A stretch of DNA of 64,000 nucleotides from Mesoplasma seiffertii ATCC 49495. GTDB lineage: Bacteria > Bacillota_I > Bacilli_A > Mycoplasmatales > Mycoplasmataceae. The notes below the pieces were generated by a model. That model had not been told where the DNA came from and made no database searches. It saw only the letters and a program-made list of their open reading frames with translations. The stretch covers positions 188,916 through 252,915 of the forward strand of contig NZ_KI912486.1 of assembly GCF_000518725.1 (NCBI RefSeq), in the 5' to 3' direction. Shown here piece after piece: positions 563 through 64,000 of the stretch; positions within the stretch are counted from its first letter, which is position 1, and the number at the start of each line of letters is the position of its first letter. Both the position numbers and the translations under genes were made by a program.

Positions 563-700
563 TGTGGTATTATTTTATTGCTATTAGTACCGAAGAAAGT
601 AACTGGGTTCGCCCTTAATTTGTTACCGAGGAAAAATGTTTTTACTTTAAAAAAACTTTTTTGTTTTCCTCGGTTGAAAAATCGAGGTTTTTTATTAGGT
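563..700 (+). promoter_or_regulatory. L10-type ribosomal protein leader (rplJL autoregulation) with attenuator
   Basis: The 5' UTR of rplJ holds the L10-leader signature: ACCGAAGAAAGTAAC (from 589), a CCCTTAA internal segment near 612, and GTTACCGAGG (622-631). The ACCGAGGAAAA strand at 625-635 is fully complementary to TTTTCCTCGGT at 664-674, which forms an antiterminator. That pairing competes with the hairpin CCTCG/CGAGG (668-672 with 683-687) followed by six T. In known L10 leaders the L10-L12 complex binds the RNA and reduces rplJL expression. That mechanism is inferred here from family knowledge, while the two mutually exclusive hairpins are visible in the sequence. Confidence 0.8.
668..695 (+). 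terminator. Attenuator hairpin in the rplJ leader
   Basis: Stem CCTCG/CGAGG with a 10-nt loop and a T6 run at 688-693. Its 5' strand is shared with the antiterminator helix formed with 625-635. Confidence 0.75.
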
Positions 701-728
701 TAACAAAATAGAACAAGGAGGAATGTCA

Positions 729-59171: not shown

Positions 59172-59579
59172 TGGTGGAGATGGCGGGAATCGAACCCGCG
59201 TCCAAAATACTTCACCATGCAACGTCTACAGTTTAGTCATGTTTTCTAACTCGACAGTGTTACTAAAACTAACAAAAGTTAAGCACGTCGTTCGTAATTA
59301 ATTTCAAAGTTATTTATTACGATGATAACTTCTATCAAACTTGGGTAATACATATAACATATAAAGCTTGAAATATAGTTATATGTTGAATGCTTTCAGT
59401 TCTAAGACTTATTAAGCAGCAAAGTTTGCTGCTCCAGCAAATTCATTATTGAACATAAATGCTGGCATTTCAAAATTTTCTTCGTTTTTGTTTGCATTTT
59501 ATCAAACCTAGAAGTAGTATGGTCTACCAGACCACTGCAGTTGCATGGCGGCATATCCTGTCGAAACCGGGACATCCCC
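59172..59579 (-). ncRNA. ssrA: Transfer-messenger RNA (tmRNA)
   Basis: The 408-nt RNA begins at 59579 with GGGGATGTCCCGGTTTCGAC and ends at 59172 with a T-arm (CGCGGGTTCGATTCCCGC) and CATCTCCACCA. The acceptor stem pairs GGGGATG with CATCTCC, allowing one G-U, and CCA is encoded. The tag reading frame runs from 59495 to 59415, starts ANKNEENF, ends GAANFAA and is followed by TAA TAA: 27 residues, long as in other mollicutes. It rescues stalled ribosomes together with SmpB and RNase R. It is one piece and not permuted. Confidence 0.97.
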
Positions 59580-62964: not shown

Positions 62965-63126
62965 ATGACAAAAGACTTAAATTGTACATGTGGTGACAAC
63001 AAAACTACAAAATCTAATTGCGCTGAAAGTAAAACTGAATGTGCTAGTTGTGATTGCAAGTGTGCTAATTCATGTGATACATGCGCAAATTGTAACTGTA
63101 CTTGTCAAAAAAGCTGTCAAGCATAA
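62965..63126 (+). CDS. Metallothionein-like Cys-rich small protein
   Basis: A 53-residue protein with 13 cysteines (positions 7, 9, 19, 26, 29, 31, 33, 37, 40, 43, 45, 47, 51), arranged mostly as CxC and CxxC: CTC near the start, then CASCDCKC, CDTCANCNCTC and a final C. There is no Trp, Tyr, Phe or His and few hydrophobic residues, so it cannot form a normal hydrophobic core and probably folds around metal. The strong GAGGAGG ribosome binding site lies 8-14 nt before ATG 62965. It is monocistronic, with its own terminator. By analogy with metallothioneins it would bind Zn, Cu or Cd, but I know no family member to anchor this. Confidence 0.75.
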   Translation: MTKDLNCTCGDNKTTKSNCAESKTECASCDCKCANSCDTCANCNCTCQKSCQA

Positions 63127-63134
63127 TATAAAAT

Positions 63135-63166
63135 ACAAAAGGGTTTTAAACCCTTTTTGTTTTTTT
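63135..63166 (+). terminator. Terminator of the Cys-rich gene
   Basis: Stem AAAAGGG/CCCTTTT with an AT-rich loop that can extend the stem, then a T-run. Confidence 0.8.
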
Positions 63167-63360
63167 CAAACAATTAATTAAAATGGAAATTCTTTTTTTG
63201 AAATTAGAATAATAATTAGTATGAAGACAGAAAAATGTGTTATTTTTAGCGTTTTCCCCATTTCAACATTAGAAATTTAAAAAGAAAAAACGGAATTTTT
63301 TATTATAAGAAAAATTTTCCCCTTTTTAATTAAGAAAACTATATACTAAAAATAACTTAA
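63167..63360. other. AT-rich upstream region of the riboswitch
   Basis: About 190 nt without a gene. TATACT at 63342-63347 is a plausible -10 box for the riboswitch transcript; the -35 region is poor (TTTTCC-like). The run TTTTCCCC occurs twice (about 63252 and 63316). Nothing else is recognised. Confidence 0.35.
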
Positions 63361-63364
63361 TATG

Positions 63365-63474
63365 AGAAAACTTACATAGGGTAGCAAATGGGCTACTGAC
63401 TCCACCCCTTGCCAAAGAAGGGACTGTAAGTATGAACTTATAAGTTTTCTGTCTAACAACAGAAAACTTTTTTG
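63365..63474 (+). promoter_or_regulatory. Purine-class riboswitch resembling 2'-deoxyguanosine variants, transcriptional OFF switch
   Basis: P1 is ACTTACA/TGTAAGT (63370-63376, 63425-63431). P2 is GTAGC/GCTAC (63381-63385, 63392-63396) with loop AAATGG. P3 is CCCTT/AAGGG (63406-63410, 63418-63422) with loop GCCAAAG. TGG of L2 can kiss CCA of L3. J2/3 is TGACTCCA, and C63424 precedes P1', the position that selects guanine-type ligands. The P2/J2-3 sequence closely follows the Mesoplasma florum 2'-dG riboswitch as I remember it. AGAAAACTTA (63365-63374) is fully complementary to TAAGTTTTCT (63441-63450), giving an antiterminator that excludes P1 and the terminator. Confidence 0.85.
63442..63474 (+). 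terminator. Riboswitch-controlled terminator
   Basis: Stem AAGTTTTCTGT/ACAGAAAACTT (63442-63452, 63459-63469) with a T-run. The 5' strand overlaps the antiterminator partner. Confidence 0.85.
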
Positions 63475-63517
63475 CGAAAAACCCTTTGTTTTCTTTGAAA
63501 GGATGAAAGGGAAATAT

Positions 63518-64000
63518 ATGAAAAAACTTATGCTATCTTTATACACAGCTTCGGCGATTGCTGTGACGTCTACTAGTGTGATTTCGTGTATACCAGCAAG
63601 TTATGCAAAAGGACCTGTTGGACAAAGAGTCTTATTAGTAACAGATGGTGGAAATGTAAGCGATAAATCCTTCAATGAAGGATCATATAATGCAATCAAA
63701 AAATATGCTAGAGAATTAGACGAATGAAATGATATTCAAGACATTTCATACGATGGTACTGGTAATTATGTTGAAGCATCAGAACATACAGCTTCAGGTT
63801 TAATCAGTGGTTACAAAATGGCTACTTTTAAACAAGCAGACGCAATGGTATTGTCAGGATTCATTCATGTCGGAACAATTGAAGTAGCTTCAAAATTAAT
63901 GGAAGATAAAAGTATTATTTTAGCTGATGGAATAGCAGATTATTCTGATGGTAAAAATCAAAATGTTATTAGTATTAGTTTTAATTCGGAATTAGCTGGA
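63518..64000 (+). CDS. BMP/PnrA-family nucleoside-binding lipoprotein (partial, runs off window)
   Basis: The first 161 residues of an ABC-transporter substrate-binding lipoprotein. MKKLMLSLYTASAIAVTSTSVISC is a lipoprotein signal with Cys24 as the lipid site. VLLVTDGGNVSDKSFNEGSYNAIKKY and GFIHVGTIEVASKLMEDKSIILADG are typical of the BMP/Med/PnrA family, which binds purine nucleosides. Of two in-frame ATGs (63503, 63518), the second has AAAGGG 5 nt upstream and gives a normal signal peptide. The riboswitch just upstream predicts repression when (deoxy)guanosine or guanine is plentiful. One UGA Trp is at 63724. Confidence 0.9.

Follow-up and report, generated by a model that had tools for sequence, protein, structure and literature searches.

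The leader at positions 63365-63473 is probably a transcription-terminating OFF riboswitch, built on the scaffold of 2'-dG-I, a class defined from Mesoplasma florum, with a U22-A52/C51/C74 ligand pocket through which 2'-deoxyguanosine would shut down an importer operon. The leader lies in the window, the whole 64,000-nucleotide stretch of Mesoplasma seiffertii ATCC 49495 DNA that was analyzed, and belongs to a genome (G000) of 978 kb in which TGA encodes tryptophan. The reading is based on aptamer homology, covariation, mutually exclusive pairings, the genes downstream, and an association between C51 and the regulated gene. The features are as follows.

63342-63347 (+): putative -10 box TATACT, picked by eye within a block identical in the nearest relative
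63365-63374 (+): antiterminator 5' strand, AGAAAACUUA, with 10 perfect pairs to 63441-63450
63370-63431 (+): 2'-dG-type aptamer, from the RF01510 match, the fold, and covariation in 53 relatives
63370-63376/63425-63431 (+): P1, from the MFE fold
63377-63379 (+): J1/2, UAG, in which U63377 is the 22-equivalent by alignment
63380-63385/63392-63397 (+): P2, from the MFE fold
63398-63405 (+): J2/3, GACUCCAC, in which U63401, C63403, and A63404 are nucleotides 49, 51, and 52 by alignment
63406-63410/63418-63422 (+): P3, from the MFE fold
63423-63424 (+): J3/1, AC, in which C63424 is the 74-equivalent by alignment
63441-63450 (+): antiterminator 3' strand, UAAGUUUUCU, overlapping the left arm of the terminator and paired with 63365-63374
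63442-63473 (+): intrinsic terminator, from pairing, with an 11-bp stem (63442-63452/63459-63469) and a T run to 63473, kept in the nearest relative
63518-64000 (+), continuing past the window end: Bmp/PnrA-like lipoprotein gene, from its Bmp domain and lipobox SVISC

An earlier note had described a purine-family, 2'-dG-like riboswitch with a three-helix aptamer and had proposed that it be checked with Infernal against RF00167 and RF01510. The Rfam 2dG-I model, RF01510, matched 63370-63431(+) across model positions 1-63 of 63 with a score of 50.1 bits (E 5.1e-10), which falls 0.9 bit short of the 51-bit gathering score, and the MFE fold of the aptamer was exactly P1/P2/P3. The kissing bases, UGG in L2 and CCA in L3, and the C before P1' (63424) were found where the note had placed them. 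A whole-genome search detected five RF01510 sites, among which this aptamer ranked second, and six RF00167 sites, from which it was missing; RF00167 gave no match at 63370-63431 at E<=10. Same-subtype sister aptamers reached up to 71.7 bits with RF01510. The aptamer alone folded slightly better than shuffled sequences (z -1.2) and the whole leader clearly better (z -3.0). These data confirm that 63370-63431 is a guanine-family riboswitch aptamer.

Among 60 relatives, RF01510 matches were restricted to the organism's own family and occurred in 21 genomes. 'Acholeplasma' multilocale (G002) and Mesoplasma photuris (G001) share a genus-level group with the window genome. Across 53 non-redundant sequences, 95% of the paired cells were standard and 17 of 21 pairs changed on both sides, a level of covariation matched by none of 500 shuffles when kinship is ignored. 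The two kissing pairs were invariant among relatives and hence fell outside this test.

The earlier note had held that a U was kept at the 51-equivalent and that the ligand was therefore open among guanine, guanosine, and 2'-dG. Alignment of J2/3 and the next base, gapless from P2' to P3, reads GUUUCUACC in the guanine type, GACCCCGCC in the reductase leader of M. florum (G023, which we take to be M. florum L1), and GACUCCACC here. Since J2/3 aligns without gaps, the U in question, U63401, is nucleotide 49, and it is C63403 that occupies the 51-equivalent. The U51 reading is thus ruled out, and the choice of ligand is narrower than the note allowed.

Two of the residues of the 2'-dG-I pocket, the C at 51 (C58) and the C at 74 (C80), are present as C63403 and C63424. 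The C-G pair at 22-52 (C31-G59) is absent, with the compensatory paired replacement U63377-A63404 in its place, and the aptamer was therefore filed as a variant of 2'-dG-I rather than as a plain member. The earlier note had missed this change of pair, which is the real difference from 2'-dG-I. In 2'-dG-I, the C at 58/51 selects the nucleoside over the base, and the C58U change costs 83-fold; conversely, U51C alone shifts a guanine riboswitch towards dG (PMC8872408). The C at the 74-equivalent should base-pair with the ligand through its guanine face (PMC8872408). From these published effects and the U22-A52 pair, the pocket appears to be the natural counterpart of the dG-preferring U51C guanine mutant on a 2'-dG-I scaffold.

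The known classes were compared on this basis. The aptamer resembles 2'-dG-I, as represented by RF01510 and the M. florum reductase leader, in its scaffold, the A-U pair topping P1, a J1/2 ending in AG, C51, C74, two G-C kissing pairs, J2/3 length, the terminator platform, and, in its own genome, a sister leader that precedes ribonucleotide reductase. It differs in having U22-A52 rather than C22-G52, U49 rather than C, an L2 that is one base shorter, and a different P3/L3, and in falling just short of the model cut-off. The first shell of 2'-dG-II, with U22, C51, and a ligand-pairing C (PMC8872408), is shared, as is A52. However, 2'-dG-II carries a two-base insertion in J3/1 and a G-C pair topping P1 (PMC8872408); because J3/1 here is AC without the insertion and the top pair of P1 is A-U, membership in 2'-dG-II was rejected. 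With the guanine riboswitch (RF00167) and its engineered U51C form, the aptamer has U22-A52, U49, C50, and C74 in common. In contrast to the guanine riboswitch, it has C51 and lacks an RF00167 match, for which reasons membership in that guanine/adenine family was also rejected; its P2 and J2/3 resemble those of 2'-dG-I, and the short loops differ. Like 2'-dG-III (PMC9295807), it is a guanine-family variant, probably for G nucleosides, but that class is set apart by its description, which includes deviations in all three junctions, ties to nucleoside hydrolase genes only, and a predicted ON response (PMC9295807). By its sequence, the aptamer is thus best described as 2'-dG-I in scaffold with U22-A52 and C51 in the pocket, a modest departure from a known class. 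No description of this variant was found in the literature searched, a set that did not cover the founding 2007 paper.

From the relatives, 85 aptamers were extracted, and the 82 with a clear J2/3 were used for counts at the pocket positions. The 22-52 pair was C-G in 38 and U-A in 44, with zero mismatches. Nucleotide 51 varied independently of this pair when kinship of the sequences is left uncorrected: C-G occurred with C51 in 24 aptamers and with U51 in 14, and U-A with C51, the type of the window, in 16 and with U51 in 28. The 16 U-A/C51 leaders were distributed over four genus-level groups on the Mesoplasma/Entomoplasma side of the family, with Mesoplasma lactucae, 'Acholeplasma' multilocale, and Mesoplasma photuris as the named matches. 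Further matches in other genera had U51, the single exception being an aptamer from the M. florum group. When columns 22, 51, and 52 were masked, a tree grouped the U-A/C51 aptamers with 2'-dG-I-like rather than guanine aptamers, with modest branch supports.

Leaders were also sampled by gene. Of the 30 loci taken for each gene, 9 for the reductase small chain and 11 for GMP synthase carried an aptamer, and two further genomes were added to each set. C51 was found in all 11 ribonucleotide-reductase leaders (8 C-G and 3 U-A) and U51 in all 13 GMP-synthase (GuaA) leaders (6 C-G and 7 U-A). Thus, nucleotide 51 follows the gene, and the 22-52 pair does not. The leader of a ribonucleotide reductase large-chain gene (PF02867) in another genome (G022) was likewise U-A/C51, and the reductase leader of the window genome (L042) was identical to the 63370-63431 aptamer in J1/2, J2/3, and J3/1. 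Bmp leaders in the relatives were mixed, with 6 C51 and 13 U51. Since these leaders carry either residue, even before neighboring paralogs, the importer alone does not name the ligand; naming it from the downstream Bmp gene was dropped, and the case rests on C51. The RF01510 cut-off was likewise dropped as a test of ligand, because at least 22 U51 aptamers, including GMP-synthase leaders of the M. florum group, scored above 51 bits; automatic '2dG-I' annotation therefore mixes ligands.

Several other leaders bear on the diversity of the family. Three pairs of neighboring Bmp paralogs, L048/L049 (G001), L061/L062 (G006), and L076/L078 (G016), each have their own aptamers, one C51 and the other U51; the G001 aptamers are otherwise rather alike. 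This split between sister genes looks like a recent ligand switch. Some U-A/C51 aptamers were also found before genes for DHH-family phosphoesterases or for a possible PD-(D/E)XK nuclease (L072 in G012, L089 in G022, and L077 in G016), hinting that nucleic-acid breakdown may fall under the same signal. In the window genome, leaders of adenylosuccinate synthetase (L043) and a Xan_ur_permease-family permease (L044) carry U at position 74, a feature of adenine riboswitches. A single scaffold therefore probably serves adenine, guanine, and 2'-dG-type sensing in this genome of about 1 Mb.

In the leader itself, C51 suggests that the ligand is a G nucleoside. The sharing of these junctions by the genome's reductase leader favors 2'-deoxyguanosine, which sequence comparison makes the most likely ligand. 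Counting against this reading are a 22-52 pair unlike that of tested 2'-dG-I aptamers, the short L2, and the RF01510 score just below cut-off. The main rival is the same OFF switch with guanosine or pooled G nucleosides as the natural ligand, which would fit a ribonucleoside importer. It draws on the preference of C51 for nucleosides in general, the ability of 2'-dG-I to accommodate guanosine (PMC8872408), the similar affinity of variant 2'-dG-III for both nucleosides (PMC9295807), and the predicted import of nucleosides by the operon. We nevertheless consider it doubtful, as the genome has identical junctions in front of ribonucleotide reductase, for which a deoxynucleoside makes sense as the signal. 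It is conceivable, at a tentative level, that U22-A52/C51 aptamers form a natural G-nucleoside class in their own right, between guanine and 2'-dG-I, with a distinct selectivity, for instance one that treats 2'-deoxyguanosine and guanosine equally. The four combinations of 22-52 and 51 in one family would then record a specificity shift in which nucleotide 51 set the ligand and the 22-52 pair drifted by compensatory change.

A guanine riboswitch, in which the U22-A52 pair restores guanine binding, is quite unlikely. U22, A52, and C74 are residues of the guanine class, and many Bmp leaders of relatives are U-A/U51, and so of guanine type. However, nucleotide 51 is here the C that by itself turns a guanine riboswitch towards dG (PMC8872408), RF00167 does not match, and the masked tree places the aptamer with those of 2'-dG-I. 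It is very unlikely that the aptamer is decaying and has lost sensing, leaving only a working terminator. The subthreshold score, the base missing from L2, and the weak z of -1.2 for the aptamer fold would suit such decay, but the core residues are all retained, the overlap of antiterminator and P1 is still exact, and the nearest relative (G003) has every letter of the aptamer unchanged while upstream intergenic DNA diverges.

The preferred reading, a 2'-deoxyguanosine OFF switch, is accompanied by an expression platform of competing pairings. As the earlier note had observed, 63365-63374 and 63441-63450 are fully complementary, with 10 pairs, all Watson-Crick. The last five bases of the 5' strand double as the first five of P1, so that the antiterminator pairs at the expense of P1 through its 5' strand and of the terminator at 63442-63469 through its 3' strand. 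When the growing transcript was folded step by step, P1 formed in transcripts ending as far as 63440, gave way to the antiterminator in those ending at 63450-63462, and returned together with the terminator at 63472. For the transcript to 63472, this last state had an energy of -32.2 kcal/mol versus -25.3 for the forced antiterminator state. These mutually exclusive pairings are arranged as in a transcriptional switch that ligand turns off, with a predicted ligand response. From the putative promoter through the terminator end, G003 differed by two positions and one indel, and the upstream spacer DNA diverged more than this leader block did. The candidate -10 box may be compared with the TAWAAT of M. 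florum -10 boxes (PMC7745072). A common terminator layout across the U-A/C51 subtype was rejected: a simple scan of its 16 leaders gave mixed results, with the overlap of antiterminator and terminator clear only here and in L053. Conservation of the platform is therefore claimed for the close relative only.

The gene downstream starts at the conserved ATG 63518; an in-frame ATG at 63503 is not kept in the nearest relative. Its product is a lipoprotein with a Bmp domain (PF02608, E 2.6e-15) and is followed in the genome by an ABC ATPase and then a BPD_transp_2 permease, upholding the earlier proposal that a nucleoside-binding-type lipoprotein is controlled. Lipoprotein, ABC ATPase, and permease are the components of Bmp/PnrA-type nucleoside ABC importers. 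The operon is thus predicted from its domains to be a nucleoside importer, and the three genes probably share one transcript. No aptamer was found before the second Bmp paralog of the genome (G000:C9).

In the proposed mechanism, plentiful 2'-deoxyguanosine would bind the three-way junction and keep P1 closed, making its first bases unavailable to 63441-63450. With P1 closed, the terminator at 63442-63469 would form, and the importer operon (Bmp lipoprotein, ATPase, and permease) would not be transcribed. At low levels of the nucleoside, P1 would be opened and the terminator blocked by the antiterminator, and the importer would be made. Ligand-induced OFF control is thus the direction suggested by the pairings.

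Elsewhere in the window, a 53-residue ORF at 62965-63126(+) with 13 cysteines (MTKDLNCTCGDNKTTKSNCAESKTECASCDCKCANSCDTCANCNCTCQKSCQA) is metallothionein-like and has its own terminator at 63135-63160; it matched nothing in Pfam, and 40 related genomes, the nearest among them, yielded no credible homologue. The only two Rfam matches at gathering level in the window were a tmRNA at 59172-59579(-) and a ribosomal protein L10 leader at 572-702(+).

Both types of 22-52 pair occur with both residues at 51 among the related bacteria, which together offer a naturally made double-mutant series for ligand change in an RNA pocket. The prediction is that nucleotide 51 decides between nucleoside and base and that the 22-52 pair is neutral; an RF01510 match by itself does not denote a 2'-deoxyguanosine sensor. 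If the reading is correct, nucleoside import and ribonucleotide reductase in this organism would be tied to one signal.
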